A stretch of DNA of 64,000 bases from the NCBI GenBank assembly GCA_017848965.1, contig JAFIHA010000052.1:83470-147469 (forward strand), read 5' to 3'. The DNA is from Dechloromonas aromatica (nom. nud.). GTDB taxonomy: Bacteria > Pseudomonadota > Gammaproteobacteria > Burkholderiales > Rhodocyclaceae. The notes under the pieces are model-generated. The model did no database searches. It had not been told where the DNA came from and worked only from the letters and a program-made list of their open reading frames with translations. Numbering within the stretch: position 1 is the stretch's first letter; every line of letters starts with the position of its first letter. This document shows, in pieces, positions 7,959 through 58,203 of this stretch. The position numbers and the translations under genes are program-made.

Positions 7959-7964
7959 GCTCAG
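7947..7964. terminator. Hairpin spanning LysR and fnr stop codons
   Basis: CTGAGCC, loop GTTA and GGCTCAG form a seven-base-pair stem. It contains the TAG of the LysR gene and the reverse-strand TGA of fnr. It is the same kind of structure as at 5115, at another convergent junction. Confidence 0.45.
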
Positions 7965-8704
7965 CAGCGGTGGTTCATCAGCGCCTTCAGGCCGCTGACG
8001 TTGAGGATGCGAATGTGCTTCTGCTGGACCGCGATGTAGCCTTCTTCCTGAAATTTGGAGAAGGCGCGCGACACGGTTTCCAGCTTGAGGCCGAGGTAGC
8101 TGCCGATTTCCTCGCGCGTCATGCGCAGGTAGAACTCGGCGTGCGAGAAGCCGCGCGCCGTGAAGCGCTGCGACAGGTTGAGCAGGAAGGCGGCCAGCCG
8201 CTCTTCGGCGCGCATCGTGCCGAGCAGCATCATGACGCCGTGGTCGCGGACGATTTCGCGGCTCATCACCTTGTGGAAGTGATGCTGCAGGTTGTGGATC
8301 TCGCGCGACAGGCTTTCCAGGCGGTTGAACGGGATCGCGCAGATCTCGCTGTCTTCCAGCGCGATGGCGTTGCAGGTGTGGTGTTCGGTGCTGATGCCGT
8401 CGAGGCCGAGCAGTTCGCCGGCCATCTGGAAGCCGGTGACCTGGTCGCGGCCGTCCTCGAGCAGGACGTCGGTCTTGAAGAAGCCGCTGCGGATCGCGTA
8501 GATCGAGTCGAAGGACTCGCCGGCGCGGTACAGGTGATCGCCGCGCTTGATCCGGCGGCGGGTCGAAATCAGGTCGTCGAGACGCTCCAGTTCATCGAGA
8601 CTGAGACCGAAGGGAAGGCAGAGTTCCCGCAGGTTGCAGTTGGAACAAGCCGTCTTGATGACGGTCAGCGAAATCTCCTGATTCAGCGGGATTGGGCTGG
8701 GCAT
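7961..8704 (-). CDS. fnr: FNR-type oxygen-sensing transcriptional regulator
   Basis: This 247-residue Crp/Fnr-family activator senses oxygen through a [4Fe-4S] cluster. The N-terminal ligands are C20, C23 and C29 (A-C-S-N-C-N-L-R-E-L-C) and the fourth is C111 (H-H-T-C-N-A). A cyclic-nucleotide-like beta-roll is followed by the helix-turn-helix R-E-E-I-G-S-Y-L-G-L-K-L-E-T-V-S-R-A, whose E, S and R read TTGAT half-sites. The ATG at 8704 is preferred to an in-frame TTG two codons earlier. hemN diverges from it across a near-perfect FNR site, so it probably controls itself and hemN, and likely the ferrosome-like operon at 47.9 kb. Confidence 0.96.
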   Translation of the reverse strand: MPSPIPLNQEISLTVIKTACSNCNLRELCLPFGLSLDELERLDDLISTRRRIKRGDHLYRAGESFDSIYAIRSGFFKTDVLLEDGRDQVTGFQMAGELLGLDGISTEHHTCNAIALEDSEICAIPFNRLESLSREIHNLQHHFHKVMSREIVRDHGVMMLLGTMRAEERLAAFLLNLSQRFTARGFSHAEFYLRMTREEIGSYLGLKLETVSRAFSKFQEEGYIAVQQKHIRILNVSGLKALMNHRC

Positions 8705-8721
8705 TGGCAACCTGCGTTGGC

Positions 8722-8735
8722 TTGATCCATGTCAA
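8722..8735. promoter_or_regulatory. FNR box between fnr and hemN
   Basis: TTGAT-CCAT-GTCAA differs from the FNR consensus TTGAT-N4-ATCAA at one position. It lies 55 bp before the hemN ATG and 18 bp before the fnr ATG. The short distance to fnr suggests autorepression, while the distance to hemN suits activation (inference). Confidence 0.8.
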
Positions 8736-8789
8736 CCGGAAATGCGATCCATCCCCACATAATCGGGCCAAAACTTGGCGCCATGTTCA

Positions 8790-10193: not shown

Positions 10194-10257
10194 GCGGCGT
10201 GTCAGGAAGGCCCGGGGCGGGTTACACTGCGGGCTTTCCTGTCGCAAGCCTTGCCCC

Positions 10258-10929: not shown

Positions 10930-10930
10930 G

Positions 10931-43729: not shown

Positions 43730-45796
43730 TCAGGTGCTGCGCAGGGCGTTGAGCAGAATGGCGATGGTGCTGCCGTTGTGGGCGATGCTGGCGGCAACCG
43801 GGGGCAGCTGGCCGAGGGCGGCTGCGGCCAGGATCGCGCTGTTGGTGCCGACGGTGAGCCGGAAATTGGCGTCGATGCGGCGCATCGTCGCCTGGGCGAT
43901 GGCGCGGGCGTCGGCGACGCGACAGATGCCGTCCTCGAGCAGGACGATGTCCGAGGTCAGGCGGGCGAGATCGGCGCCGCGTTGCATGGCGATGCCGACT
44001 TCGGCGCCAGCCAGCGCCGGGGCGTCGTTGATGCCGTCGCCGACGAAGGCGATGCGTCGACCGTCGGCCTTCATGCCGGCGACGATGGCGGCTTTCTGTT
44101 GCGGCAGCAGTTCGGCGTGGCATTCGTCGATGCCGAGCCGGCGGGCGATTTCTTCGGCACGCCGGCGGTGGTCGCCGGTCAGCATGACCAGATGGCGGAC
44201 GCCCATGTCGCGCAGGCGCTGCAAGGTTGCCCGGCTTTCCGGACGCAGTTCGTCCTTGAGCGCGATGACGCCGAGCAGGCGGCCGCCATAGCCGATGTAG
44301 AGCAGCGTCTTGCCCTGCCGGTAGAGCTTGTCGAGTACCGTCTGGTGGTCGCTGACCGGGATGCCCTCGTCCTCGACGACGAAGTGGCGTGAGCCGACGA
44401 CGATACGTTTGCCGTCGACGACGCTGGCGACACCGTGGGCGGCGATGAACTCGACTTCCTTGTGGTCGAAATGCTGGCCGTGATGACGGCGGGCGGCCTC
44501 GACGACGGCCAGTGCCAGCGGGTGGAAGTAATGTTCCTCGACCGAGGCGGCGAGGTCGATCAGGTCTTCCGGGCTGTATTGCGGATCGAAGGCGATCGAA
44601 TCGGTGACCGCCAGCTTGCCGGTGGGCAGCGTGCCGGTCTTGTCGAAGACGAAGGTGTCGACCGCGAGCAGTCTTTCGAGCACGTCGCCACCCTTGAACA
44701 GGATGCCTTGTTTCCCCGAGCGGTACATCGCCGATTTGAAGGCGACCGGCGTCGCCAGCTTGAGGGCGCAGGAATAGTCGGCCTGCAGGACGGCGGCGGC
44801 GCGTTGCCAGTCGCCGCTGACCAGCCAGGCGCTACCGGCCAGGCCAAGCACGGCGGGAACCAGGCGATCGGCGAGGCGCGCGGCCTTGAGCTGCGAGTCG
44901 CTCTTGGCGGCGAGCGATTGCTCGACGTAGTCGGCGATGCGCGCCGAGGCGGTGTTGCGGCCGACGTGTTCGGCGTAGACGCGCAGCCGCCCTTCCTCGA
45001 CGACGGTGCCGGAGAGCACGCTATCGCCGCGACGGCGCAGCACGGGTTCGCTTTCGCCGGTCATCGCTGCTTCGTTGAGCAGCGCCTCGCCGCCAAGAAC
45101 GGTGCCATCGACGGGAACGGTGGCGCCGGCGGCGACGATGATGGTCATGCCGACCGCGACCTCACCCGCCGCGAGCTGTCTTTCCTGACCGTCGATTTCG
45201 ACCCAGACCTGAGCGGTGTCCGGATGCAGAAGTTTCTTCAGCAGGTCGTCCGAGCGGCGGGCGATCGACTGCTCGAGGTAGTCGCCGAGCGCCAGCATGA
45301 AGATCGTCGCGTTGGCCGCCGTGTAATCGCGGCGGGCGGCCGAAATGGCGACTGCCAGTGCCTCCAGGACGTGCGAATTGATGCCTTCCCGGCGCAGGTC
45401 GGCGACGGCGCCGGCAAACAACGGCAGCGCTGCAACCAAGGTGGTGGGCATCTGCAGGCCGGCCGGCAGCAGTGGGTGGGCAGCGAGCAGGGCGCCGCCG
45501 CCCAAGACTTCACCCAGCCCTTCGCCCTTGCCGGGAACGGCTGCCAGACGCGGCGCGTTGCCGGCGATGTCCAGCCCGCGTAGCCCCCGGCTCAGGGCGG
45601 TTTCATCGGTGGCCGCCGGGTCGTAATCGATGACCAGCGAGCGGGCCGCCCGATTGACCCGCGCCTGCTGTACGCCGGACAGGTTCAGCGCCGCGCGGGC
45701 CAGTCCGCGGGCGTCGAAGCTCGTGTCGGCGCGATAGACGAAGCGGATTCTGCCGGGCAGGCGATGCGCCACCCGGAAGTCGATGGCCGGGGTCAT
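43730..45796 (-). CDS. P1B-type ATPase with SCALK motif, FezB-like
   Basis: This 688-residue membrane ATPase has T-G-E-S, the phosphorylated D385 in D-K-T-G-T, the H-P in E-H-Y-F-H-P-L-A and G-D-G-I-N-D. The intramembrane motif is S-C-A-L-K (C343) instead of C-P-C. The N-terminus is not an HMA fold with C-x-x-C but carries R-V-A-H-R-L-P-G-R-I-R-F. This combination resembles the P1B-6 group that includes FezB, the iron-pumping ATPase of ferrosomes. It is the last gene of a six-gene operon and overlaps the previous stop by ATGA. Iron as substrate is inferred. Confidence 0.88.
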   Translation of the reverse strand: MTPAIDFRVAHRLPGRIRFVYRADTSFDARGLARAALNLSGVQQARVNRAARSLVIDYDPAATDETALSRGLRGLDIAGNAPRLAAVPGKGEGLGEVLGGGALLAAHPLLPAGLQMPTTLVAALPLFAGAVADLRREGINSHVLEALAVAISAARRDYTAANATIFMLALGDYLEQSIARRSDDLLKKLLHPDTAQVWVEIDGQERQLAAGEVAVGMTIIVAAGATVPVDGTVLGGEALLNEAAMTGESEPVLRRRGDSVLSGTVVEEGRLRVYAEHVGRNTASARIADYVEQSLAAKSDSQLKAARLADRLVPAVLGLAGSAWLVSGDWQRAAAVLQADYSCALKLATPVAFKSAMYRSGKQGILFKGGDVLERLLAVDTFVFDKTGTLPTGKLAVTDSIAFDPQYSPEDLIDLAASVEEHYFHPLALAVVEAARRHHGQHFDHKEVEFIAAHGVASVVDGKRIVVGSRHFVVEDEGIPVSDHQTVLDKLYRQGKTLLYIGYGGRLLGVIALKDELRPESRATLQRLRDMGVRHLVMLTGDHRRRAEEIARRLGIDECHAELLPQQKAAIVAGMKADGRRIAFVGDGINDAPALAGAEVGIAMQRGADLARLTSDIVLLEDGICRVADARAIAQATMRRIDANFRLTVGTNSAILAAAALGQLPPVAASIAHNGSTIAILLNALRST

Positions 45797-46227
45797 GCGC
45801 TCTTGCGGGCCTCGGCTTCGACTTCGGCCCGGATGTCGGCCATCTGTTCCTTGATTTCCTCGACGCCGCCAGCGACACCGGCATAGAGCTTCATCGCCGT
45901 CCTGGCCAGTTTGCCGCGCATCTTCTCGTCGCCCAGGACATATACCGCGGCCGCGCCGATCAGTGCGCCGAGGATGAACTGTTCGCTCTGGCGTGAACCG
46001 AGCATGCCCTGCAGGCCGTGCAGCAGTCCGGGTTGCGCGCCGGGCTGGGCGCCGAACAGGCCGTTCAACGCATTCGGATCAAATGCCGGTGGCGGGCCGG
46101 CGTCCATGCCGCCGTACATGCCCTGGCCGATACCGCCACCCATGCCCGGGTTCATCCCAGCCATGCCGGGCTGGCCCCAGTTGGCGTATTGCGCGGCCTG
46201 ACGCCGTTTATCCTTCTTCTTGCCCAT
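45793..46227 (-). CDS. Gly/Met-rich membrane protein of the fez-like operon (144 aa)
   Basis: This 144-residue protein begins M-G-K-K-K-D-K-R-R-Q-A and continues with a Gly/Met/Pro-rich, low-complexity half (residues 18-65). One hydrophobic helix (F-I-L-G-A-L-I-G-A-A-A-V-Y-V-L) lies at about 95-110, followed by a charged helical tail (E-E-I-K-E-Q-M-A-D-I-R-A-E). The ATG at 46227 has GGAGATCGG before it. The extensive upstream open frame is an artefact. It may coat or anchor an organelle membrane, by analogy with other Fez accessory proteins. Confidence 0.8.
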   Translation of the reverse strand: MGKKKDKRRQAAQYANWGQPGMAGMNPGMGGGIGQGMYGGMDAGPPPAFDPNALNGLFGAQPGAQPGLLHGLQGMLGSRQSEQFILGALIGAAAVYVLGDEKMRGKLARTAMKLYAGVAGGVEEIKEQMADIRAEVEAEARKSA

Positions 46228-46519
46228 TTCCGATCTCCTTGGATGGCTGATCCTGTAATAAATTTTCGATGGCGACGACAGCGGCGGTGGCGAGGGCGAT
46301 GCGCCCCAGGCCAAGGGCGGTCTGTCCGTTCCGCAAGTCGCGGGCGGCGGCTGCGCCGCCGGCAAGCGCGCAGCCGCCCTGAAGGGCGAGACGCAGGGTG
46401 CGCCGGTCAAGGTTCAGGCCGCCGCCGCGCTGCTGCACCGCGCCGAGCATGCCGCCGGTGACGAAGCCGCGGACGAACTCGTTGCCGCCGCCGGGCACGA
46501 GCGCATTGCGTTGGCTCAT
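46208..46519 (-). CDS. Small hydrophobic protein of the fez-like operon (103 aa)
   Basis: This 103-residue Gly/Ala-rich protein has two weak hydrophobic segments (F-V-R-G-F-V-T-G-G-M-L-G and I-A-L-A-T-A-A-V-V-A-I). It overlaps the preceding gene by ATGA and the following one by 20 bp. No family is recognised. Its conservation within other six-gene fez operons would be the key test. Confidence 0.75.
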   Translation of the reverse strand: MSQRNALVPGGGNEFVRGFVTGGMLGAVQQRGGGLNLDRRTLRLALQGGCALAGGAAAARDLRNGQTALGLGRIALATAAVVAIENLLQDQPSKEIGNGQEEG

Positions 46520-46842
46520 GCCGTTTCGTCCCCAGTGGTCGTTTTCCGGCGCGGCGCGGCTTTTGTCGCCGTTTTGCGGCGGCGCGGCGGCTTCGCCTCG
46601 GGGGGCGCGGCCACTTCCACCGGAGTGGCGGCGGTTTCCGGCGGGAGCGGGGCATCCGTTGCGCTCAGACGTTCGCGCATCGCGGCGGTGGAGCTTTCGA
46701 GCCGCGCGAGTCCGCTGACGCTCGCCTTGCGCAAGCTGTCCCTGGCGTTGTCGAGGGCGGCGCGGGTTTTCTGGTTGCGCATCATCTTGATCGCGACGGC
46801 GCCGGTGACGAGTCCGGCGGCAAAAGGCAACAGCGGCAGCAT
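46516..46842 (-). CDS. Membrane-anchored basic-tail protein of the fez-like operon (108 aa)
   Basis: This 108-residue protein has an N-terminal hydrophobic helix (L-P-L-L-P-F-A-A-G-L-V-T-G-A-V-A-I), a helical middle and a Pro/Ala/Lys/Arg tail resembling histone H1 (P-P-R-R-R-K-T-A-T-K-A-A-P). The tail may contact polyphosphate, phosphate-rich granules or nucleic acid. It starts 2 bp after the ferritin-like gene. The function is unknown. Confidence 0.78.
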   Translation of the reverse strand: MLPLLPFAAGLVTGAVAIKMMRNQKTRAALDNARDSLRKASVSGLARLESSTAAMRERLSATDAPLPPETAATPVEVAAPPEAKPPRRRKTATKAAPRRKTTTGDETA

Positions 46843-46844
46843 GG

Positions 46845-47543
46845 TCAGTCCTCCTGGGGGGAAATGCGGGGAGTCTGCTTGCGCAGATAGTGAACGGCGG
46901 CGCCGCCAGCGACGATTCCCGCCAGCAGTGCCGGGTGGGCGTTGCGCACCAGCGGGCCGACGATGCCGAAGGCACCGTGCTGGCGGGTGAGCAGGGAGAG
47001 ACCGCTTTCGACGATGCCGGTCAACGGGCCGTGGCGGACATAGGCCTGGCTGGCCGGGACGCCTTGCGCGGCGTGGTAGCTCTCGCGCGCGATGGCGCTC
47101 TGCAGGGCGCGCTGGAAAGCCGGTAGATGGTTTTCCAGCGAGGCCGACTGCAGGTTGAGGAAGACCCGCTGGACATCGGCCGGCGGCTGGATCGACAGGA
47201 GGTGCTGGTAGAGCTGCACATTGGCGATCTCGGCCGCGATCCCTTGCTGGAGATTGGCGCGCCAGGTGGGGGCGACGACGGTTTCGAGCGGAAAGGGATC
47301 CTGCGGGCGGGGGATGCCGTAATGTTCGCAGAGTCGGCCGAGTGCGGCGACATGCTGTTCCTCGGCGGCGACGATGTTCGAGAAAGGCGGCAGATTGCCG
47401 TAGGCCTCGATGACATGCCGATAGTAGGCGCGGGCCGCGTATTCGTCGTACATGGCGATGCGGATCGCCTGGTGCAGCAGCGGGAAGGGCGCCGCCGGCT
47501 GCAGGGTGCGGCTGCGCAGGATCGCCTCGTCATAGTTGGCCAT
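46845..47543 (-). CDS. Ferritin-like (DUF2202-type) protein with C-terminal membrane segment
   Basis: This 232-residue protein has a four-helix ferritin-like domain with carboxylate/histidine positions E34, E61-x-x-H64, E105 and E137-N-H139. P-P-F-S-N-I-V-A-A-E-E-Q-H is the signature of DUF2202-type proteins. The C-terminal 70 residues are hydrophobic (G-I-V-G-P-L-V-R, then A-L-L-A-G-I-V-A-G-G-A-A), suggesting membrane anchoring. It could oxidise or buffer iron at an organelle membrane. The start overlaps the stop of the first gene by 14 bp. Confidence 0.82.
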   Translation of the reverse strand: MANYDEAILRSRTLQPAAPFPLLHQAIRIAMYDEYAARAYYRHVIEAYGNLPPFSNIVAAEEQHVAALGRLCEHYGIPRPQDPFPLETVVAPTWRANLQQGIAAEIANVQLYQHLLSIQPPADVQRVFLNLQSASLENHLPAFQRALQSAIARESYHAAQGVPASQAYVRHGPLTGIVESGLSLLTRQHGAFGIVGPLVRNAHPALLAGIVAGGAAVHYLRKQTPRISPQED

Positions 47544-47913
47544 GACAGACCTCCTCGTACTTGTCTTCGATGATGCCGAGCAGCGCCTGCGCGGCCGGGG
47601 TGTTGGCGCCGGCCAGCAGGTCGTGCCAGGCGCGGTCGGGAATCACCGCGTTGTCGTATGCGATGGTGCAGGAGCGCGCCAGCTTGTTCAGACGGATCTC
47701 GCGCACGCCGCGAATCGCTCCCAGCGCGTCGCCCAGTCCTTCCTCGCCGAAGGCGCGGACGGCAGGCTCGTCGAGGATCGCCGCGTCGATCTTGAAGCGG
47801 ATGCGACCGGGAATCTGATGGGCGATACGCAGGTAAGGCGCAGCGATCCGCACGGCCTCGACGGGCGGCAGGGACGATGATGGAATGGGGGTGCCAGCAA
47901 AATTTCCAGCCAT
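47530..47913 (-). CDS. First gene of the fez-like operon, PGRIRF-motif protein (127 aa)
   Basis: This 127-residue protein contains R-I-A-H-Q-I-P-G-R-I-R-F near residue 30. This is the same motif as at the N-terminus of the P-type ATPase five genes downstream, and it is followed by a ferredoxin-like or HMA-like fold (V-R-E-I-R-L-N-K-L-A-R-S-C-T-I-A-Y-D). The sharing suggests a common ligand or interaction. The ATG at 47913 was chosen over an upstream GC-rich extension that would run into the FNR site. Confidence 0.8.
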   Translation of the reverse strand: MAGNFAGTPIPSSSLPPVEAVRIAAPYLRIAHQIPGRIRFKIDAAILDEPAVRAFGEEGLGDALGAIRGVREIRLNKLARSCTIAYDNAVIPDRAWHDLLAGANTPAAQALLGIIEDKYEEVCHGQL

Positions 47914-47989: not shown

Positions 47990-48030
47990 ACCTTAGCAGG
48001 TCTGCGCTCCAGCAGCTTGACATAAATCAA
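47990..48030 (-). promoter_or_regulatory. FNR-dependent promoter of the fez-like operon
   Basis: TTGAC-ATAA-ATCAA at 48017-48030 matches the FNR consensus except one base. On the minus strand a candidate -10 (TAAGGT, 47990-47995) puts the start near 47982, with the FNR centre at -41.5, the classical class II position. The -10 itself matches TATAAT at only three positions. Confidence 0.7.
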
Positions 48031-48066: not shown

Positions 48067-49032
48067 TCAGCAGCGGTTGCGGAAATGTCTGGGCGATTCG
48101 CCGAAATGGCGCCGAAAGGCGGTCGAGAAGTTGGCCTGGCTCGCGTAGCCAGCGATTTCGGCGGCCAGCGCGACGCTGACACCATCGCGCCGCAGGGCGC
48201 TCGCTGCCCGCTCCAGGCGGCGCTGACGTAGATAGTCGAAGATGGTGCTGGCGAAGGCCTGGCGGAAATGCTGTTGCAAGGTGGTGGCGTTGCAGCCCAT
48301 CTGCTGGGCTATTCCGTTCATGTCGAGGTGGTCGGCGGCGCCGCTGTCGAGCAGACGACGCAGACGGCAAATGCGCCGGTAGTGCGTCGGTGCGAGTCCG
48401 TGATCGCTGGTGTGGTCGCGCGCCAGGAGTTGCGTAAACGCATCGCCGACGATGTCCAGGCAGCGGCTTTCCATGGCCAGGCGCTCGAGTGGATCTTCGG
48501 CGTCGCCGGGGCGCAGCAGTTGCTCGACGGCGCCGAGCGTGCGTTGCGACGGTTGCCAGGCGAGCTGATTCAGGTGGCGGGCCGGCAATCGCCCGTTCAG
48601 GCCGGCTTCGTCGATCCAGGCAGGCGACAAGGTGATCACCACCATGCGCTCCCGGGTTCCGGCGGTGCTGCTGCGCGTGAACCGGACCGGTCGTGTCAGC
48701 GTCAGCACGGTGGCCACGGGGCGGGCCGACTCACCGTCGCCGGCGTCGAGATCGAGGAGCTGGCCGTCCAGCTTGACCCTGGCATTGCCTTCCAGCTTGA
48801 CGATGATTTTCGTGCCGGCGGGCATCAGAGCAAAGGCCGTGTTCAGGTTGCAGAGATGGAGGATGTCGGTGCATTGCAGGCCTAGTCCGCCGCGCAGCCC
48901 GGCCTGGAAAAAGACGCCAGCGAGCAGTTCGGCGCGCGCTGGCTTGTGGGGAATGTCGAAGCCTTCGCCGATGCGTCGGAAGAGGTAGTCGGCGTCGATC
49001 ACCGGGGATGGGGTTTTCTTTACAGCAAACAT
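48067..49032 (-). CDS. AraC-family regulator (PchR-like)
   Basis: This 321-residue protein has an N-terminal sensing region and a C-terminal double helix-turn-helix (M-N-G-I-A-Q-Q-M-G-C-N-A-T-T-L-Q-Q-H-F, then Y-A-S-Q-A-N-F-S-T-A-F-R-R-H-F). The C-terminal S-P-R-H-F-R signature resembles siderophore-responsive PchR/AlcR regulators. It diverges from a siderophore receptor gene, its likely target. Two TTGCAAwA-type repeats lie in the 112-bp gap. It separates the fez-like promoter from the siderophore operon. Confidence 0.9.
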   Translation of the reverse strand: MFAVKKTPSPVIDADYLFRRIGEGFDIPHKPARAELLAGVFFQAGLRGGLGLQCTDILHLCNLNTAFALMPAGTKIIVKLEGNARVKLDGQLLDLDAGDGESARPVATVLTLTRPVRFTRSSTAGTRERMVVITLSPAWIDEAGLNGRLPARHLNQLAWQPSQRTLGAVEQLLRPGDAEDPLERLAMESRCLDIVGDAFTQLLARDHTSDHGLAPTHYRRICRLRRLLDSGAADHLDMNGIAQQMGCNATTLQQHFRQAFASTIFDYLRQRRLERAASALRRDGVSVALAAEIAGYASQANFSTAFRRHFGESPRHFRNRC

Positions 49033-49067
49033 TTTTCTTGCTCAGGCAAAAGTTCGGGTGACGATCA

Positions 49068-49112
49068 TTTGCAATACTACGGCCATTTGTTGCAAATAGT
49101 AATAAGTCGCAA
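49068..49112. promoter_or_regulatory. Direct repeats and Fur-like palindrome in the AraC/receptor gap
   Basis: TTGCAATACTA (49069) and TTGCAAATAGTA (49090) form a direct repeat at about two helical turns, as AraC proteins prefer. The second copy is part of TTGC-N15-GCAA, whose reverse complement also resembles a Fur box (TTGCGACTTATTACTATTT). Confidence 0.45.
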
Positions 49113-49144
49113 CAGCAATATCAATGAACGTATCGAGGAATCCC

Positions 49145-51340
49145 ATGAAAGCCCGCATTGACCGCATGCATCGCAACTCCTTGTTCCTGGCCGTCCTGGC
49201 GGCCTTCCCCCCGCTTGCCGTGGCCCAGGCGGCAAGCGACGGCGATGCCAAAATGCTCGGCTCGGTGACGGTCAATGCCTACCAGGCCACCAAGCAGACT
49301 TCCGGTGCGACCAAGACCGAAACTCCGCTAGCCGAGACTGCCCAGTCGGTGTCGGTGATCGCCAGGGAGGAAATGGATGCGCGCGGCGTCCGCAATCTCA
49401 ATGACGCGATGCGCTACGTTGCCGGCGTGGCGCTGGAAAGCACCGGCATCGACAACCGCGTCGATGATTTCAGTATCCGTGGTTTCGATGCCGGCAGCTG
49501 GGGCAACAACGTCACCATCGACGGCATGCGGGCGCCGCAGGGCAGCCAGTGGAACCGGACCATGATCGACAGCTGGAATCTCGAGCGGATCGAGGTGCTC
49601 AAAGGGCCGGCGGCGGTGATGTACGGCCAGGTCGCGCCAGGCGGCATGGTCAACCAGGTCAGCAAGACGCCGAATCGGGAGCGCGAGCGTGTTCTGCGCC
49701 TGGGCGTCGATGGGCACGGCCAGTACAACGCCGCCTTCGATCTCGGCGGCGGTTCCGACGATGATCGGCATCTTTTCCGCCTGGTCGGCCTGGTCCGCCA
49801 GGGCGACACCCAGATCGAGCATACCGAGGAAGACCATTCCTTCATCGCGCCCAGTTATACCTTTCAGGTTTCCGATGCGACGCGGCTGACCCTGCTCGGC
49901 CTTTACCAGCGCGATCATGGCGGATCGACCTACCAGTTCCTGCCGATGGCCGGCACGCTGGTGCCGACCCAGTACGGGCGGATCAAGAACAGCACCTTCA
50001 TCGGTGAACCGGACTGGAATACCTACAACCGGACGATCTGGACCGCCGGCTACCAGTTCGAGCACGCCTTCAACGAGCGCTGGAAATTCAGCCAGAGCGC
50101 ACGTCTGACCGACGTCCAGTCGCTGTTCCGCAGCGTCGTCACCAACGGCGCCCTGAATGCCGACGGACGTACGCAGAACCGCCGCGCGGTCTGGGGTGAC
50201 GGCGATTCGCGCGGTTATACCGTCGATACCCGGCTGACCGGCAAGTTCGCGACCGGTCCGCTCGAGCACACCCTGCTGACCGGCATCGACTGGCAGAAGG
50301 CAGACTGGACTGGCGCCCGCGCCGCGATGAACAACCCGGGAGCGATCGACATCTTCAATCCGGTGTACAGTCACTTCACGCCGGTGACCACCAGCATTAC
50401 CTACCTCGGTGGTGTTAACCGGCAGACCGGTGTCTACCTGCAGGATCAGATCGCCGTCGACAAGTGGCGCTTGACGCTGGGCGGACGCTACGACTGGGCC
50501 AAGGATGACACCTGGACGCAGGCGTACACGGTGGCGACCGACACCTGGGGGAGCCGCTCGCCGACCCAGGTCGACAGCGAGGCCTTCACCCGCAACGCCG
50601 GCCTGCTCTATGTCGCCGACAACGGCTTGGCGCCCTACGTCAGCTTTGCCGAATCCTTCCAGCCGTCGGGCAACAATGCCGATCTGAATGCCGCCAGAAA
50701 GGCCTTCGACCCGGTCACCGGCGAACAGTGGGAAATCGGCGTGAAGTACCAGCCGAAGGGTATCGACGGACTGGTTACGCTATCCGTCTACGACCTGCGC
50801 CAGCAGAACATCCTGCTCGACGATACCGGCAACGCGACCTGTGGCCCGGCCGGTACCAGCCAGTGCAAGATTCAGGGGGGAGAAAGCCAGGTTCGCGGCG
50901 TCGAACTCGAAGGTCGCGTCACGCTGACCCGGGGCTTCAGCGTCATCGGCGCGCTGTCCTGGATGGACTCCGAAGTCATCCGCGGCACGGCGGCCCTGCG
51001 CGGCAAGGAACTGGCCCGGGTGCCGGACAAGACCGCTTCGCTGTGGGCCGACTATACCTTCCACAACGCCGCGCTGGCCGGCCTCAGCCTGGCCGCCGGG
51101 GTGCGCTACAACGGCAGGAGCTACGGCGACAGCGCCAATGCCTACCGGATTCCCTCGTTCACCTTGTGGGACGCGGCGATCCGCTACGTCATCGGCCGCG
51201 ACAGCAAGCTGCCGGTACAACTCGCGCTCAACGTCAGCAACCTGACCGACAAGCAGTACATCTCGACCTGCGGTACCGTCGCTTCCTGCTACTACGGCAC
51301 CGGCCGCACCGTGAACGCGACGGCGACCTTCAGTTGGTGA
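49145..51340 (+). CDS. TonB-dependent siderophore receptor, FhuA/FoxA-like
   Basis: This 731-residue outer-membrane receptor starts at the ATG behind GAGGAATCCC and has a signal peptide ending A-V-A-Q-A. A TonB box (L-G-S-V-T-V-N-A-Y), T-P-L-A-E-T-A-Q-S-V-S-V-I and the plug signature F-S-I-R-G-F-D-A-G follow. L-E-R-I-E-V-L-K-G-P-A-A-V-M-Y-G is the FhuA/FoxA-type plug end. The C-terminus is T-A-T-F-S-W. The downstream esterase and PepSY genes point to a siderophore that is hydrolysed or reduced after uptake. Its stop overlaps the esterase GTG. Confidence 0.93.
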   Translation: MKARIDRMHRNSLFLAVLAAFPPLAVAQAASDGDAKMLGSVTVNAYQATKQTSGATKTETPLAETAQSVSVIAREEMDARGVRNLNDAMRYVAGVALESTGIDNRVDDFSIRGFDAGSWGNNVTIDGMRAPQGSQWNRTMIDSWNLERIEVLKGPAAVMYGQVAPGGMVNQVSKTPNRERERVLRLGVDGHGQYNAAFDLGGGSDDDRHLFRLVGLVRQGDTQIEHTEEDHSFIAPSYTFQVSDATRLTLLGLYQRDHGGSTYQFLPMAGTLVPTQYGRIKNSTFIGEPDWNTYNRTIWTAGYQFEHAFNERWKFSQSARLTDVQSLFRSVVTNGALNADGRTQNRRAVWGDGDSRGYTVDTRLTGKFATGPLEHTLLTGIDWQKADWTGARAAMNNPGAIDIFNPVYSHFTPVTTSITYLGGVNRQTGVYLQDQIAVDKWRLTLGGRYDWAKDDTWTQAYTVATDTWGSRSPTQVDSEAFTRNAGLLYVADNGLAPYVSFAESFQPSGNNADLNAARKAFDPVTGEQWEIGVKYQPKGIDGLVTLSVYDLRQQNILLDDTGNATCGPAGTSQCKIQGGESQVRGVELEGRVTLTRGFSVIGALSWMDSEVIRGTAALRGKELARVPDKTASLWADYTFHNAALAGLSLAAGVRYNGRSYGDSANAYRIPSFTLWDAAIRYVIGRDSKLPVQLALNVSNLTDKQYISTCGTVASCYYGTGRTVNATATFSW

Positions 51341-52272
51341 CCTACCGTTTCCTGCTCGCTCTGCTGGGTGGCCTGCTGCTGATGCAGCAGCCCGTCGTCG
51401 CCCAGCCGAACCTGGCGCAGCGTACCGGCACCACCCTGGCCGAGACCGGCGTTGCCGGCTATCGTTTTGCCACGCTGCGCCTGTCGTCGGCCGATGGTGA
51501 GCGGCATTACCGCCTGCGGGTCGCGCTGCCGACCGGGGCGGCACCGGCCAGCGGTCATCCGGTGGCCTGGCTGCTCGACGGCAACGCCGCCCTGATGGAT
51601 GTCGGCGCAGCCACGCTGGTCGAACTGGCCCGCCGGCCCGCCGCGCCGGTTATCGTCTTCGTCGCCCACGACAACGATCTGCGCATCGACGGCGCTGCCC
51701 GCGCCTTCGACTACACGCCGCGCCGGCCGGGCGGAGACGAGGCCCAGCGCGATCCGCTGGGCAGCCGCCGCAACGGCGGCGCCGACGCCTTCCTCGAGCT
51801 GATCACGAGGCAGGCGATGCCGCGGGTCGCCGCGCTGGCGCCGGTCGATCCGGCGCGCCAGGCCTTGTGGGGGCATTCCTACGGTGGCGTCTTCGTCCTC
51901 CATGTCCTGTTTACCCGGCCGCAAGCTTTTGCCGAATACGGGGCCGCCGATCCTTCGCTATGGTGGGGCGATGGCCAGTTGTCGCGCGAGGAAGCCGCGG
52001 CTGCTCGCTGGTCCGCCAAGACCCGGTTGCGGCTGTGGCTGGGCGCCGGGGCGGGGGAGCGGAAGCTGGCGGCCGGTCGCGATGCCGGTAGCGTCGAAAT
52101 CATGCAACGGGCGCGCCACAGCGTGCCGCCGGACGCGGCTCCGGCGCTGGCCGCAAGGCTGCGTCAACGCGGGCTGGCCGTCGAGCTTCTGGATTTGCCG
52201 GGGTTGTCGCACGGGCAGACCCTGGGCGCCTCGCTGCCGCCTTTCCTGTTCGGGCTGTCGGAAGGCGAATGA
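51337..52272 (+). CDS. Alpha/beta-hydrolase, IroE/Fes-like siderophore esterase
   Basis: This 311-residue protein has a signal peptide (L-L-L-M-Q-Q-P-V-V-A-Q) and the nucleophile elbow W-G-H-S-Y-G-G, with later W-W-G-D and the catalytic His in L-S-H-G-Q-T. This is the esterase-D/IroE pattern, suggesting periplasmic cleavage of an ester siderophore. The GTG start overlaps the receptor stop (GTGA). The siderophore itself is not identified. Confidence 0.88.
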   Translation: MTYRFLLALLGGLLLMQQPVVAQPNLAQRTGTTLAETGVAGYRFATLRLSSADGERHYRLRVALPTGAAPASGHPVAWLLDGNAALMDVGAATLVELARRPAAPVIVFVAHDNDLRIDGAARAFDYTPRRPGGDEAQRDPLGSRRNGGADAFLELITRQAMPRVAALAPVDPARQALWGHSYGGVFVLHVLFTRPQAFAEYGAADPSLWWGDGQLSREEAAAARWSAKTRLRLWLGAGAGERKLAAGRDAGSVEIMQRARHSVPPDAAPALAARLRQRGLAVELLDLPGLSHGQTLGASLPPFLFGLSEGE

Positions 52273-52303
52273 TGATCTCTTGCCGTTTCAAGGATGACAA
52301 TCG

Positions 52304-52588
52304 ATGAATCCCTGGTTGTACACGCTCGCAGCGCTGGCCGGCATCGTCGGCGCTTGGCTGCTCTACCTCGCCGTGCCGCAGCAGCAATGGCTGGCCGCCC
52401 CGCGCCGGCCGGCGCGGGGCCTGGCCTGGTCCGGGGCGGCGCTGGCGCTCCTCGCGCTGCTCCTGTTGCTGACGATGATGGGCGCGATGGCGGCGGTCGC
52501 CACCTGGCTCAGCCTGTTGATGCTGGTCGGCACGCTGGCGCCTTTTCTCGGGGCGTGGCGGGCGCATCGGCGGCGGAGGCCGGCATGA
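52304..52588 (+). CDS. DUF3325 small membrane protein
   Basis: This 94-residue protein has three hydrophobic helices and a DUF3325-like sequence (M-N-P-W-L-Y-T-L-A-A-L-A-G). Such genes accompany PepSY reductases in siderophore clusters. The function is unknown. It overlaps the next gene by ATGA. Confidence 0.8.
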   Translation: MNPWLYTLAALAGIVGAWLLYLAVPQQQWLAAPRRPARGLAWSGAALALLALLLLLTMMGAMAAVATWLSLLMLVGTLAPFLGAWRAHRRRRPA

Positions 52589-52890
52589 CGACGCAGCGTA
52601 GCCATCGACTCGACAGCGCCGACTGGTTCGGCAAGACCTGTGCCGGCCTGGTGCTGGGGTTTTCGCTGGCGGTCGCCGTCAGCGGACTGTGCGCCTGGCT
52701 GACGCCCGGCGGCATTGCCGGCGGCAATGGCAAGATCCAGTTCGTCATGTGGCTGATTGCGCCGCTATGGGCCGGCGTCCTGTGCTTTGTCTTCCTTTTT
52801 CGCGACAGCCGGCGCGCCTGGCTCTGGCTGGGTGGAGCAAACCTGGTCGCCTGCGGTCTGCTGGCCGGTGTTCGCGGACTGCTGGGGTGA
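52585..52890 (+). CDS. DUF3649 small membrane protein
   Basis: This 101-residue protein has three hydrophobic helices and a DUF3649-like opening (W-F-G-K-T-C-A-G-L-V-L-G-F-S-L-A). It belongs to the same siderophore-reduction cassette. The ATG at 52585 follows GGAGGCC. The function is unknown. Confidence 0.8.
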   Translation: MTTQRSHRLDSADWFGKTCAGLVLGFSLAVAVSGLCAWLTPGGIAGGNGKIQFVMWLIAPLWAGVLCFVFLFRDSRRAWLWLGGANLVACGLLAGVRGLLG

Positions 52891-52894
52891 GCCG

Positions 52895-54520
52895 ATGAAA
52901 ATTCGCAACGACGTCATCAAGGTGTACAAGGATGTGCACATCTGGGTCGGCATCCTCAGCGGGCTGATGCTGTTCATCGCCTTCTACGCCGGTGCCATCA
53001 CGATGTTCGAGAAACCGCTCGAACGCTGGGCAACGCCGCCTTCGTCGCTGGCCGCGCCGCCGCCGCTGGCACGTGCCGAGGTCTTGCTGCAGGCGGTGCT
53101 CGCCGAGCATCCGCAGGCGGCGAAGAACTACCTGATCGTCGTCGAGCCGACGGTCGATGCGCCGGCCCGGGTGATCTGGCGCGAGCCGGGCAAGAGCCGC
53201 CGGCAGTTCACCGAATTCGGCGCCAGCTTCGCCGACGACGGCAGCCTGCAGGTCGAGAAACTGCGCAAGGCGCCGGTTGCCCAACTGGTCGACACGCTGC
53301 ACCAGCTGGTCGGCCTGCCTTTTCCCGATGCGCTGGCCCGTCCGATCATGGGCGCGGTGGCGCTGCTCTACGCGGTGGCGCTGGTCTCCGGGCTGATCAT
53401 CTTCCTACCGACGCTGGCCAAGGACCTCCTGGCCATGCGCATCGGCCATAACATCAAGCGCTTGTGGATGGACGTGCATAACGCGCTGGGCGTTGTCAGC
53501 CTGCCTTTCCATGTCGTCATGGCGCTGACCTGCGTGGTCTTCGCTTTCCACGACGAGTTCTACGACGTGCAGGGGGCTGTGGTCTATGAGCAGGGCGTTC
53601 CCTGGCAGCGCGAGACCCCGCCGGGGCCGCCGACGCCGGACGCCAGGCCGCTGCCGGCAGTCGAACTGCTGCGTCTGGCGCATGCCCAGCAGCCCGGTTT
53701 CGACGTCTTCAATTTCAGCTTCAAGCAGGCCGGCGGCCAGCTCGAAGCCAGCATCACCGGCCTCGACACGCGCTACGGCACGCGCGCCCGCACCTATGCC
53801 AGCACGCACCTGAATCCGTATACCGGTGAAATCGATCCGCACGACCTGCCGGGTCAGATGGACCCCTGGGATACTGCAGTCAACACCTTCTTCATGCTGC
53901 ATTTCGGCAGCTTCGGCGGCAATCCGGTGCGTTGGCTCTACCTGCTGCTCGGTCTGGCCGGCGCCTTGCTGTTCTATACCGGCAACCTGCTCTGGATCGA
54001 ATCGCGGCGACGCAAGCAACGTGCCGACGGCGTGCCCGAGCAGACGCGCTCGGCGCGGGTGCTCGGCAGCCTGACCGTTGGCGTTTCGCTCGGCTGTGTC
54101 GTCGGCATTTCGGCGACCCTGGCGGCGACCAAGTGGCTGCCGCAGCGGGTCGATAACCTGGCGGCGTGGCACGAAGGCATCTATTACGCGCTTTTCGTCG
54201 CCGCCGTCGCCTGGGCCTTCGTGCGCGGCGCGCCGCGCGCCGCCGTCGAACTGCTCCGCCTGGCGGCCCTGCTCACCTTGCTGATTCCGCTGAGCAGTCT
54301 GGCCGGCGTCTGGGGCATCGGCGGCGCCTGGCATCATCCGGGCATCGGCTGCGTCATCGACCTGACGGCGCTCGCCGCGGTCCCGGTCTTCCTGGTGATC
54401 GCCGGCTACACCGCACGGCGCATGCGGGTCGGCCATGCCGACAGCGTCTGGGCTCAGCCGGCCTCGTCGCAGCCTTTGCCGCCGTCCGGCCGCGGGCCGG
54501 CGAGTGCGCTCCAGGAGTAG
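52895..54520 (+). CDS. PepSY-domain transmembrane protein (PiuB-like)
   Basis: This 541-residue protein has a first helix after Y-K-D-V-H-I-W-V-G, PepSY regions in the periplasm and further helices with M-D-V-H-N-A-L-G and F-F-M-L-H-F-G, plus three C-terminal helices. Paired histidines in the helices could bind haem. Such proteins are thought to reduce ferric siderophores. Its 3' end overlaps the convergent NnrS gene by 67 bp, so no terminator lies between them. Confidence 0.9.
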   Translation: MKIRNDVIKVYKDVHIWVGILSGLMLFIAFYAGAITMFEKPLERWATPPSSLAAPPPLARAEVLLQAVLAEHPQAAKNYLIVVEPTVDAPARVIWREPGKSRRQFTEFGASFADDGSLQVEKLRKAPVAQLVDTLHQLVGLPFPDALARPIMGAVALLYAVALVSGLIIFLPTLAKDLLAMRIGHNIKRLWMDVHNALGVVSLPFHVVMALTCVVFAFHDEFYDVQGAVVYEQGVPWQRETPPGPPTPDARPLPAVELLRLAHAQQPGFDVFNFSFKQAGGQLEASITGLDTRYGTRARTYASTHLNPYTGEIDPHDLPGQMDPWDTAVNTFFMLHFGSFGGNPVRWLYLLLGLAGALLFYTGNLLWIESRRRKQRADGVPEQTRSARVLGSLTVGVSLGCVVGISATLAATKWLPQRVDNLAAWHEGIYYALFVAAVAWAFVRGAPRAAVELLRLAALLTLLIPLSSLAGVWGIGGAWHHPGIGCVIDLTALAAVPVFLVIAGYTARRMRVGHADSVWAQPASSQPLPPSGRGPASALQE

Positions 54521-55668
54521 ACAAGGTAGATGCCCCAGGCGAGCAGCCAGAGGAGACCGGCCAGATTCAGTAGCGCCAGGTAAGCGGCGGCGAAGGCCGC
54601 CAGGCCGGCGGCGGCGCGCAGCAGGCCGAGGGCGATCAGCAGCGCGGCGGCGCCGGGCAGCCAGCGGCGGTGATCGAGGCCGTGACCGCTGTGCATGCGG
54701 CCGGCGACGGCCATGACGAACAGGATGGCGAGCCCCATGGCGCCGGCCAGCAGCAGGTGGTGGCCGGCACTCTGCCAGTTTTCGCCGGCCAGCCGGCCGC
54801 TGCCGATGAGGCCGTAGCCGAGCGCGATCAGCCAATAGACCAGGTAGGGAACGAGCACCCAGCGTTGGCCCAGCGCCCGCCCGACATGCCAGTCGTTGAG
54901 CAGGTTGAGCATGGCGGCGGCAGCGGCCAGGGCCAGCCAGCCGCCGGCGGCGTTGCCGGGGAGCAGGAATTCGCCGAGGCTGTAGAGGGCGATGGTGAAG
55001 GTCGCCAGGTTGCGGCGGGGCGGTCGCGCCAGGTAGGGGGCGGTGATGCCGCCTTGGCCTTCGAGCACGTCGTTGACCAGGCGCATCGAGATGCGCGACA
55101 TGGCGACGACGATCAGCATCATCAGCAGGCCGATGGCCAGGCGCAGCCAGGCCATGGCGTCGCCGTCGCGCGCCAGCGCCAGGTAGAAGCCGGCGTGGCT
55201 CGCGGTCAACGCGGCGAGTGCGTGAAAAAACGCCAGGTGGCGGCGTTGCGGGTCGCGCCACAGGGGGGCGCCGGTTTTTACCAGCAGCAGTCCGAGGAAA
55301 GCGAGGTCGCACAGGGCGGCTGGCCAGACGCCGAGCCAGCCGGCCAGCAGGTAGGCGAGGCGACCGCCGGCCCAGAGGAGGAGCAGAATCTGCACGGTTT
55401 GCCGGGGGGCCGGCGGGGTGCCGGTGAATTCGACCACGGCGGTGAGCAGGAAGCCAGCCAGCGCCGCGGTGGCGAAGCCGAACAGCATCTCGTGGATGTG
55501 CCAGACGACGCTGCCGCCCGGCAACTCGGGCAGCGCCAGCAGACCGGCCAGGTTGCCCAGCCACCAGGCCATGGCGATGCAGGCATGGGCGGCGGTGAGC
55601 AGGAAGAAGGGGCGGCAGGGGCAGAGCCAGAGGGCTGCGCTTAGTCCGGGAAAAGTACGGTTTTTCAT
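54454..55668 (-). CDS. nnrS: NnrS family haem-copper membrane protein
   Basis: This 404-residue polytopic protein with about twelve helices has the NnrS signatures P-F-F-L-L-T-A-A-H-A, W-H-I-H-E-M-L-F-G-F and H-A-x-T-x-x-x-x-G-like histidine positions (M-H-S-G-H-G). NnrS proteins bind haem and protect against nitrosative stress. It is the last gene of a receptor-ABC transporter operon, an unusual setting. The ATG overlaps the ATPase stop (ATGA). Confidence 0.9.
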   Translation of the reverse strand: MKNRTFPGLSAALWLCPCRPFFLLTAAHACIAMAWWLGNLAGLLALPELPGGSVVWHIHEMLFGFATAALAGFLLTAVVEFTGTPPAPRQTVQILLLLWAGGRLAYLLAGWLGVWPAALCDLAFLGLLLVKTGAPLWRDPQRRHLAFFHALAALTASHAGFYLALARDGDAMAWLRLAIGLLMMLIVVAMSRISMRLVNDVLEGQGGITAPYLARPPRRNLATFTIALYSLGEFLLPGNAAGGWLALAAAAAMLNLLNDWHVGRALGQRWVLVPYLVYWLIALGYGLIGSGRLAGENWQSAGHHLLLAGAMGLAILFVMAVAGRMHSGHGLDHRRWLPGAAALLIALGLLRAAAGLAAFAAAYLALLNLAGLLWLLAWGIYLVYSWSALAGPRPDGGKGCDEAG

Positions 55669-56402
55669 GTGGCGGCCAGCGGCGGCAGGGCAAAGGCGGC
55701 GCGGATGTCCGGCCAGCGGATGAATTCGGCGGTACGGGCGAAAACCCAGGCGTCGTCGCGTTCGCCGACCGGCGTGGCGACCCGGTGTTCGGCGACGATG
55801 CGGCCGGGGCTGCCGCTCATCACCAGGATGCGGTCGGCCAGGCGGAGGGCTTCCATCAGGTCGTGGGTGATCATCAGCACGGCGCTGCCGGCCGCTGCGC
55901 GCTCGCGCGCGAGCAATCCGTAGAGTTCGCTTTTCAAGCCGATGTCGAGGGCGGCGAAGGCCTCGTCGAGGAGCAGCAGGTCGGGCGAGACGGCAAAGGC
56001 GCGGGCCAGCGCGGCGCGGCTCTGCATGCCGCCGGAAAGGGCGGCGGGAAACTTGTCGAGAGCGTCGTCGTCGAGACCCATCCGGTGAGCCAGCTGGCGG
56101 GCGCGGGTTTGCCGTTCGGCAATCTGTGTCCGGCGCGCCTTGAGACCGAGGGCGATGTTGTCGAGCGTGCGTTTCCAGGGCAGCAGGCGTGGTTGCTGGA
56201 ACATCATCGCGGCTTGCCCGAAGCTGCTGTCGATGCGTCCTTCCCAGGGGCTGAGCAGGCCGGCGGCGAGGTTGAGCAGGGTGCTCTTGCCGCAGCCGGA
56301 AGGGCCGACCAGGGCGACGGCCTGACCGGCTTGCACGCAGAGGTCGATGTCTTCGAGCACGCGCTGGTAGCCGAAGCGGTGGTACACCGCCGAAATCTTC
56401 AG
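55665..56402 (-). CDS. NitT/TauT-type ABC transporter ATP-binding protein
   Basis: This ATPase of about 245 residues has Walker A G-P-S-G-C-G-K-S-T, the signature L-S-G-G-M-Q-S-R-A and Walker B L-L-L-L-D-E-A-F-A-A-L-D. No ATG, GTG or TTG fits the first beta-strand L-K-I-S-A-V-Y-H-R-F. The likely start is a CTG at 56402 overlapping the permease stop as CTGA, analogous to the ATGA joints around it. A GTG at 56387 would remove the strand. The substrate is unknown. Confidence 0.85.
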   Translation of the reverse strand: MKISAVYHRFGYQRVLEDIDLCVQAGQAVALVGPSGCGKSTLLNLAAGLLSPWEGRIDSSFGQAAMMFQQPRLLPWKRTLDNIALGLKARRTQIAERQTRARQLAHRMGLDDDALDKFPAALSGGMQSRAALARAFAVSPDLLLLDEAFAALDIGLKSELYGLLARERAAAGSAVLMITHDLMEALRLADRILVMSGSPGRIVAEHRVATPVGERDDAWVFARTAEFIRWPDIRAAFALPPLAAT

Positions 56403-57220
56403 TTGCTTGATGATGCGAACTCCCGCCAGGACTCGACGCGGCGCTTGAGCGGTTCGAGCAGAAGGTATTCGATGGCCAGCAGGGTGCCGACCAGGGCGAC
56501 GATCCAGGCCATCGAGGCGGCGGTGTCGAGATGGCTGCGCGAGACGGCCAGCGCGGCGCCGATGCCGTCCTCGGTGGACAGCAGTTCGGCCATGACGACG
56601 ATCTTCCACGACATGCCGAGCGCCGCGATCCACGCCGGGAAGAGATAGGAAACGACGTGCGGCAGGTAGACGTCGGTCAGCTTCAGCCAGGGCGAGAGAC
56701 CGAACATCTGCGCCACTTCCCGCAACTGGCCGTCGAGGGTGCGCGTGCCCTGCATGGCGCCGACGAAGACGATCGGGAAGCAGGCGATGAAGACGGTGAA
56801 TACCGGCGTTCCGTCACCGGCGCCGAACCAGAGCAGGGCGAGGATCAGCCAGGCGATCGGCGGCATGCCGGCGAGCACGGTGATGATCGGCCGGGCCATC
56901 ATCGAGGCTGTCATCGAAACGCCGGCGGCCAGGCCGAGCAGGCTGCCGACGCCGACCGAAAGCGCGAAGCCGGCGAGCGCCCGGCGCGCCGTGACGGCGA
57001 TTTCCGGCCAGGCGCCGCCGTCGTCGAGGAGGCCGCCGAGGGTGGCGAAGGCGGCCATCGGCGTCGGCAGGATCAACGGCCCGAAGCTCTGTGCGGTCAG
57101 TTCCCAGGCGGCGAGGAAGAGGCAGAGACTGGCCAGCGAACCCCAGCCGTGCCACAGGTAATGGCCGCTGGCGGCGAGCGCCTCGAGCACTTGCTGCGCC
57201 CGTCCAGCCTGGCGGCTCAT
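56399..57220 (-). CDS. NitT/TauT-type ABC transporter permease
   Basis: This 273-residue permease has six helices and the EAA-like loop (F-G-L-S-P-W-L-K-L-T-D-V-Y-L-P-H), with A-G-M-P-P-I-A-W-L-I-L-A-L-L-W-F-G typical of SsuC/TauC. It overlaps the binding-protein stop by ATGA. It forms a transporter with the flanking genes. Confidence 0.92.
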   Translation of the reverse strand: MSRQAGRAQQVLEALAASGHYLWHGWGSLASLCLFLAAWELTAQSFGPLILPTPMAAFATLGGLLDDGGAWPEIAVTARRALAGFALSVGVGSLLGLAAGVSMTASMMARPIITVLAGMPPIAWLILALLWFGAGDGTPVFTVFIACFPIVFVGAMQGTRTLDGQLREVAQMFGLSPWLKLTDVYLPHVVSYLFPAWIAALGMSWKIVVMAELLSTEDGIGAALAVSRSHLDTAASMAWIVALVGTLLAIEYLLLEPLKRRVESWREFASSSN

Positions 57221-58203
57221 CGGGCGTAGAAGGCGGGGCCGGGCAGCTTGCCGCCGATCAGCGCCGGGTTGGCGGCGTGCAACTGGCCGAGGAAGAATTC
57301 GAGTTCGGCGCGGGCTTCCGCCGTCGGCAGCGAACGCATCTGGCTGACTGCCAGCGAGTCGGCGACGGCTTCCGGGCTCAGCAGGTCGATGCGTTTGGCA
57401 ACCATCGCGCCGCATTGCAGCGCGTTCTGCTGGCACCAGGCCAGCGACCGGGCGTAGGCGGCGAGCACTGCCGCCTGCAGCGCGGGGTCGGCTGCCGCCG
57501 CGCCGAGGGCGACGATGCCGGCCTGCGGAATGCGCGTCTCGCGTTTGAACAGGCGTCCCCACTCCTGCTGCAGGTCGACGCTGCGGTGGAGGTCGGGGGC
57601 GATCAGGCTGAGCGGGAAGGATTGCGTCTTGCGCAGCGCCATCGACACCGCCGGCTCGGCGAGCAGGGCGTGGTCGACGCGCCGCGTCACCAGCAACTGC
57701 ATGGCGTCGAGCGGCGAGGCGACGTAACGCAGCTTGAAATCCTTTTTCGCATCCAGGCCCTGCCGGCGCGCCAGCAGTTCGAAGACGATGTCCGGCATGT
57801 CGGCGCGGAAGGGCATGGCGATTTCCTTGCCGCGGAAATCGGCCAGCGTCTTCGCCCCGGCGTCGCGCGAGACCATCCACAGCACGCCCCAGGTCGACAC
57901 GTTGATCAGGCGCAGCGGGACGCCCCGGTTGTGGAGGTTGGCGGCGACATTGGTCGGCATCGCCACGAAATCCGCCTGTTTGCCGAGGGCCATGACGCGC
58001 AACTGGTCCGGGTCTTTCCAGGGGCGGAATTCGACCTTGTCGGCGACCGCCTGCAGGGCGCCGGTCTCGACCATATGGATGAGCGGTGTCGAGACCGAGG
58101 CCGGTGGGCCGGACAGCACCAGCAGCGGCAGCTTGCCGGCGGCGGCGGCCGGTCCGGCCAGCCAGCCGGCGAGCGCCAGGGCGGCGACGAGCAGGCGCCG
58201 CAT
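57217..58203 (-). CDS. NitT/TauT-type ABC transporter substrate-binding protein
   Basis: This 328-residue periplasmic protein has a signal peptide (L-L-V-A-A-L-A-L-A-G-W-L) and an NMT1-like fold, with D-F-V-A-M-P-T-N-V-A-A-N-L and L-L-A-E-P-A-V-S-M-A-L-R. Its relatives bind small organic molecules. It overlaps the receptor stop by one base (TGATG), so receptor, binding protein, permease and ATPase form one uptake route for a TonB-imported compound. Confidence 0.9.
   Translation of the reverse strand: MRRLLVAALALAGWLAGPAAAAGKLPLLVLSGPPASVSTPLIHMVETGALQAVADKVEFRPWKDPDQLRVMALGKQADFVAMPTNVAANLHNRGVPLRLINVSTWGVLWMVSRDAGAKTLADFRGKEIAMPFRADMPDIVFELLARRQGLDAKKDFKLRYVASPLDAMQLLVTRRVDHALLAEPAVSMALRKTQSFPLSLIAPDLHRSVDLQQEWGRLFKRETRIPQAGIVALGAAAADPALQAAVLAAYARSLAWCQQNALQCGAMVAKRIDLLSPEAVADSLAVSQMRSLPTAEARAELEFFLGQLHAANPALIGGKLPGPAFYAR

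Follow-up and report, generated by a model that had tools for sequence, protein, structure and literature searches.

A Predicted Ferrosome (fez) Operon of Variant Type with a Ferritin-Like Gene in Dechloromonas aromatica

The Six-Gene Operon and Its Products

The window analyzed here, a stretch of 64,000 nucleotides of the Dechloromonas aromatica (nom. nud.) genome (assembly GCA_017848965.1, contig JAFIHA010000052.1, positions 83,470 to 147,469), contains a minus-strand run of six open reading frames, from 47913 down to 43730, which is probably a ferrosome (fez) operon of a variant type that carries a gene for a ferritin-like protein. All six frames (p1 to p6) are open; the p1/p2, p3/p4, p4/p5, and p5/p6 junctions are overlaps of 14, 4, 20, and 4 bases, respectively, and p2 and p3 are separated by a gap of 2 bases. 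These coordinates and junctions agree with an earlier note, made by reading the DNA without database searches, which described six adjacent genes that overlap or lie within 2 bp of one another and end in a P1B ATPase gene.

The first gene, p1 (47530..47913), encodes a soluble protein of 127 residues with an HMA_2-like domain (27 bits, below the cut-off of 30), and the second, p2 (46845..47543), encodes a ferritin-like, DUF2202-type protein of 232 residues with a weak hydrophobic stretch toward the C-terminus. Three small proteins follow: p3 (46516..46842; 108 residues), with a hydrophobic stretch at the N-terminus and a basic tail; p4 (46208..46519; 103 residues), which is rich in glycine and alanine and has one hydrophobic stretch; and p5 (45793..46227; 144 residues), in which a lysine-rich start, a glycine- and methionine-rich stretch, and one hydrophobic stretch are followed by an amphipathic end, and whose relatives are annotated as YtxH-domain proteins. 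The mean hydropathy of the hydrophobic stretch is 1.65 in p3, 1.55 in p4, 1.50 in p5, and a marginal 1.32 in p2, against a threshold of 1.3 chosen for this analysis.

The last gene, p6 (43730..45796), encodes a P1B ATPase of 688 residues with intact catalytic motifs, and both of the sequence features that had drawn attention to it can be read in the protein: R-V-A-H-R-L-P-G-R-I-R-F near the N-terminus, and S-C-A-L-K in place of C-P-C, as part of the sequence D-Y-S-C-A-L-K-L-A-T-P ahead of the D-K-T-G-T site. The N-terminal motif recurs, as had been noticed, in a separate small protein, since p1 carries R-I-A-H-Q-I-P-G-R-I-R-F and has no C-x-x-C motif. The pattern H-x-x-x-G-R-x-R, common to p1 and p6, is invariant in a 12-row family alignment of each protein.

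Relationship to the R. palustris fez Operon and Class of the ATPase

In Rhodopseudomonas palustris CGA009, six fez genes (RPA2333–RPA2338) have been reported to make ferrosomes (PMC12016538). The operon of the window was compared with that of a single R. palustris strain, locus L170, which is taken as strain PS3 and through which alone the published FezB was compared. Earlier profiles of p3 and p4 had held R. palustris-like rows, and the profiles for this comparison were built from the window's family alone. These family-only profiles match the PS3 operon one to one and in the same order, with E-values of 0 for p6, 7.4e-34 for p1, 1.1e-25 for p3, 3.4e-27 for p4, and 9.2e-31 for p5, and p6 is 62% identical to the PS3 ATPase over 682 residues. 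FezB-like ATPases (E 1e-150) occur in 15 of 248 genomes of Bradyrhizobium's family, four of them scoring near 980 bits, and all four of these genomes carry photosynthetic reaction-center genes. In the PS3-type genome, pufM and the ATPase gene lie approximately 908 kb apart, which fits the 805 gene numbers from RPA1528 to RPA2333 if a gene takes up about 1.13 kb on average; RPA1528 is given as pufM in PMC13289028. Neither Rhodopseudomonas nor Shewanella, and hence not the S. putrefaciens operon cited in the earlier note, was among the 80 loci that a scan of named genomes with general P-type patterns listed.

The earlier note had regarded a grouping of the ATPase with another P1B class as decisive against a fez operon, and no such grouping with the P1B-1, -2, -4, or -5 references was found. 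In a 40-row tree, p6 falls inside a 23-row clade (support 100/99) together with PS3-type and other cysteine-motif ATPases, and the cysteine is kept in all 23 rows, as variants of D-[YF]-[SA]-C. Outside this clade lie E. coli CopA and ZntA; PbrA, CzcP, and a copper-type ATPase of pMOL30; FixI and a TPCP-type ATPase of Sinorhizobium meliloti pSymA; and four of the five other P-type ATPase matches of the window's own genome. The plasmid references are named from position and motif. Warnings of the tree program about long branches (KdpB, TPCP type, FixI) and about rows of unusual composition leave the deep branching order uncertain. The motifs C-P-C, S-P-C, and T-P-C-P that mark classes P1B-1, -2, -4, and -5 are replaced in p6 by D-Y-S-C-A-L-K. 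On this sequence and tree evidence, p6 is assigned as a FezB-type P1B ATPase rather than as a member of P1B-1, -2, -4, or -5. FezB itself is counted as a P1B-6 ATPase. A class table within PMC7558416 gives Fe(II) as the substrate of P1B-6. Two P1B-like ATPases from Bradyrhizobium's family (L178, 7774-9915; L179, 7937-10075) have D-Y-G-T-G-I-R at the position of D-Y-S-C-A-L-K, without the cysteine, and branch just outside the FezB-like rows.

The Ferritin-Like Protein and the FezC-Like Gene

The ferritin-like character that had been read from p2 is compatible with a DUF2202 match just above the cut-off (E 8.5e-5; 22.8 bits, cut-off 22) that covers residues 33–81 only; the membrane segment claimed along with it is the marginal stretch described above. 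Five candidate metal ligands (E34, E61, H64, E105, and H139) are present, and the fourth helix is without the glutamate of the usual ligand pattern. All five ligands are kept in 7 of 13 aligned rows, including the window and both outgroup rows, and one to four are lost in the other six; this count leaves out L038, whose gene is split between frames. Three other residues, E154, H157, and H171, are fully conserved across the family (11 rows), and the two outgroup rows do not share them. A PDB sequence search with the ferritin-like profile gave nothing convincing (best E 0.071), Rfam and PHROGs searches gave nothing informative, and no description of a ferritin-like fez component was found in the open literature searched. 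In L038, the ferritin-like gene (8350-9051) lies in two frames and the ATPase (10110-12158) is without about 14 residues near its end; this operon looks damaged, through either decay or sequence errors.

The FezC-like protein of related operons combines an HMA domain with a membrane part at the C-terminus, in which two histidines are invariant (six rows). It matches DUF4405 weakly and below the cut-off in five of seven proteins scanned (E 0.007–0.21), in line with the description of FezC in PMC10979944 as a DUF4405-like cytochrome. Within the fetched stretch, a FezC-like gene is found in 10 of 12 family loci with p2 and in 11 of 13 without it. The window departs from the strict R. palustris-type gene content, in which a FezC-like gene is present. 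The gene is not treated here as defining fez systems in general, because a review names FezA and FezB as the components required in C. difficile (PMC12574912). In L063 (7893-8144) and L067, an 83-residue protein encoded downstream of the ATPase corresponds to the membrane half of the FezC-like protein only, without the HMA domain.

The state of the p2 ligands appears to vary with the position of the FezC-like gene. Among the family rows, ligands are damaged in all five in which a FezC-like gene lies directly upstream, versus one of the six others (L035; Fisher p 0.015, without correction for the kinship of the rows and leaving out L038). They are intact in the remaining five of these six operons, which either have no FezC-like gene or have it at some distance. 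The association of ligand loss with an adjacent FezC-like gene is a lead only, as the independent changes are few.

Distribution and History of the Operon

Among 199 sampled genomes of the window's family, p2 is matched in 13, and 12 (the window and 11 others) carry all six genes in an unchanged order, which indicates that the gene set is not due to chance; the thirteenth (L039) gave no match to the rest of the set. The ATPase is found at E 1e-150 or better in 25 of these genomes, comprising the 12 with the full set and 13 without p2. On this count, the ferritin-like gene was rejected as a standard member of fez operons in the family. For one locus without p2 (L215), the contig does not extend far enough to include the site of the gene, and its absence there rests on the whole-genome search. 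Neither the ATPase nor p2 was found in the four same-genus genomes listed, and the operon is therefore patchy and was probably acquired. Across the phylum, such an ATPase occurs in 8 of 398 genomes, the window included. The p2 gene was not found in the R. palustris-like and Azospirillum operons, nor was a p2 relative found in the four R. palustris-like genomes by a search that had no positive control; p2 is present in the Arcobacter plasmid locus L063 and in L067, from a gammaproteobacterial metagenome-assembled genome (MAG). Elsewhere in the window's family, a P1B ATPase and a small p5-like protein follow what appear by eye to be feoA and feoB (L219, 7243-12077), and this ATPase is perhaps a further type of iron ATPase.

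The history of p2 was followed on a 36-row ATPase tree, from which L219 was left out and other near or distant rows were thinned. The p2-bearing Arcobacter–MAG pair branches as sister to the remaining 27 rows of its clade, and the presence of p2 requires at least six changes on this tree, four of which are forced by well-supported branches. Pairwise p2 and ATPase distances are correlated (r 0.91, 78 pairs), also within the family (r 0.75, 55 pairs), where none of 2000 permutations reached as high a value. The p2 tree groups the window with L028 and L031 (85/88) and L033 with L034, L036, and L037 (100/100), and leaves L029, L030, L032, and L035 without a settled place, with 2 of its 10 inner branches well supported; the fine order differs, as the window joins L028 in the p2 tree and L031 in the ATPase tree. 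Because the p2 tree agrees in broad outline with that of the ATPase, these sequences are most simply read to mean that p2 would be ancestral and would have been lost several times, once on the branch leading to Azospirillum and R. palustris, and the same agreement makes repeated independent gains less likely. Whole operons have probably moved between the family and the Azospirillum and R. palustris groups, since the rows of the latter sit inside those of the family. The location of the ferritin-bearing operon L063 (CP129951, 125245-133549) on a plasmid of Arcobacter, which belongs to another phylum, suggests that plasmids have carried such operons between lineages.

Regulation and Genomic Surroundings

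An FNR-type box, TTGATTTATGTCAA, lies upstream of the operon on the minus strand (48017..48030) and starts 117 bases before the p1 start codon. The form TTGATNNNNRTCAA occurs twice in the 64-kb window, versus 0.03 expected, the other copy (8722..8735, plus strand) being located in the gap between fnr and hemN. The fnr gene itself (7961..8710, minus strand; NF008365, 256.4 bits, cut-off 228) would be a possible regulator encoded in the same window. Boxes of the Y/R form number 9 in the 29 kb made up by the kilobase upstream of p1 in 29 operon loci, versus 3 in 494 kb of the rest; the scan took in 11 of the 13 family loci that lack p2. The box-bearing loci are the window, L030, and four R. palustris-like loci, and the two that belong to the family, the window and L030, are also its two p2-bearing loci without a FezC-like gene. 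The best reading of these sites is that the operon would be induced anaerobically. A DNA search of the upstream stretch in its own genome returned the stretch itself and two short matches only.

The surroundings are rich in iron genes, in agreement with the iron island of the earlier note: 2956-36792 and 49124-60260 hold five TonB-type receptors (the assignment of one, 29505-32336, depends on a weak match to Plug), two FeoB, two FeoA-like proteins, a FecI-type sigma factor, and FecR, and the region also encodes two bacterioferritins, a BFD-like protein, and a flavodoxin. The bacterioferritin genes (21266-21748 and 21759-22244) had been described as adjoining the operon but are situated about 21 kb away. 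Just upstream of the operon, within 48067-51340, an AraC-type regulator gene lies on the same strand and is divergent from a gene for a TonB-dependent receptor.

Proposed Function and Alternative Explanations

The gene content, gene order, and ATPase class point to a fez operon of variant type, with a probability of approximately 0.7. In the proposed mechanism, a fall in oxygen would lead FNR to turn the operon on, and the small membrane proteins p3, p4, and p5 would shape or coat vesicles derived from the inner membrane, into which FezB would pump Fe(II) at the expense of ATP and where the iron would be stored in mineral form. The HMA-like domains of p1 and FezB, which are rich in arginine, may hold the assembly together, or may bind phosphate or lipid. 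The ferritin-like protein p2 would bind or oxidize iron at the membrane of the vesicles, either as a substitute for FezC or alongside it, and in other fez systems this step may fall to the FezC cytochrome.

Several observations weigh against this identification. The FezC-like gene was not found in the window's genome, where the six-row profile met only HMA domains of other proteins (assembly 99.22% complete), nor in G495, the genome of L030. The FNR-type box is restricted to 6 of the 29 loci, only 2 of which are among the 23 family loci scanned, and is absent from the other 23; no Fur box was recognized upstream of the operon (best 9 of 19 positions versus the consensus). The comparison leans on one R. 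palustris strain, and p6 also scores above the cut-off of the broad NCBIfam "cadmium family" (TIGR01512, 372 versus 313.5 bits). The last point would suit an Fe(II) or other metal efflux operon, in which the ATPase exports from the cytoplasmic membrane and the ferritin-like protein buffers excess metal with no organelle; P1B ATPases are mostly exporters, and a ferritin-like partner suits detoxification. This explanation is improbable, as p6, although it passes the TIGR01512 cut-off, is separated in the tree from ZntA and PbrA, as well as from CzcP and the TPCP type, and is co-inherited with p1, p3, p4, and p5, which match the operon of a species reported to make ferrosomes. An acquired operon that is decaying or non-functional would fit the patchy distribution with its same-genus absences, the missing FezC-like gene, and the damaged look of the relative L038, and is very improbable in view of the six open frames, the intact catalytic motifs and p2 ligands, and the FNR-type box of the window.

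If the operon does build ferrosomes, a purely structural p2, serving as a membrane or scaffold component with no iron chemistry, is a serious possibility short of even odds: it would account for the rows with lost ligands and for the invariance of E154, H157, and H171 in the family, whereas the seven rows that keep all five ligands, the window and both outgroup rows among them, and the failure of the outgroup to keep the three invariant residues argue against it. A bolder proposal, tentative and on balance unlikely, is that p2 is a genuine part of the ferrosome that works at the membrane of the organelle, where it oxidizes iron or nucleates its deposition, and is able to replace FezC, so that the ferrosomes of this branch would have begun as hybrid ferritin–membrane organelles of which the R. 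palustris type is a reduced form; it is favored by the ligand pattern of the family rows, in which damage is seen in every operon with a FezC-like gene immediately upstream and most operons without such a neighbor have intact ligands. Iron storage by ferritins and iron storage by ferrosomes are usually regarded as two distinct strategies. Through an operon in which both meet, apparently old and several times lost, the oxidation and deposition of iron within ferrosomes could be approached directly; a simple condition for induction is suggested by the FNR-type box, and the version that has the ferritin-like gene and lacks the FezC-like one offers a natural test of the role of each part.

Comparison with Known fez Systems

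What is surprising here is the apparently old and repeatedly lost ferritin-like gene and not the presence of a fez operon. The likeness to known fez operons that the earlier note had proposed holds for five of the six proteins, which match R. palustris PS3 in order, and fails for the gene count on which it partly relied. As in the window, p1, p3, p4, p5, and the ATPase gene follow one another in the R. palustris operon, with FNR/FixK-type boxes upstream; PS3 has a FezC-like first gene (FezC-like, p1, p3, p4, p5, ATPase) and no ferritin-like gene, whereas the reverse is true of the window, and the agreement in gene number therefore appears from the gene contents to be partly a coincidence. An identity of the two operons on the grounds of their six genes was rejected for the same difference in contents.

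More distant operons share other parts of the arrangement. In Mailhella L070, as in the window, the ATPase carries D-Y-S-C-A-L and a small membrane protein is encoded in the same direction, but the genes form a three-gene set in which a FezC-like gene follows the ATPase (E 3e-24); p1, p3, p4, and the ferritin-like gene were not recognized there, and the p5 profile did not match its small protein. This arrangement is presumably a relative of the Desulfovibrio magneticus fezABC type. The Arcobacter plasmid operon (L063, CP129951) and the MAG operon L067 have the gene order of the window, with p1, the ferritin-like gene, the p3 region, p4, p5, and the ATPase following one another, although their sequences are distant (L063 belongs to another phylum), the 83-residue protein resembling the C-terminal half of the FezC-like protein comes after the ATPase, and in L067 the p3 profile has no match at the limit used. 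The existence of a version with a ferritin-like protein hints that the well-studied R. palustris version is a trimmed-down form.

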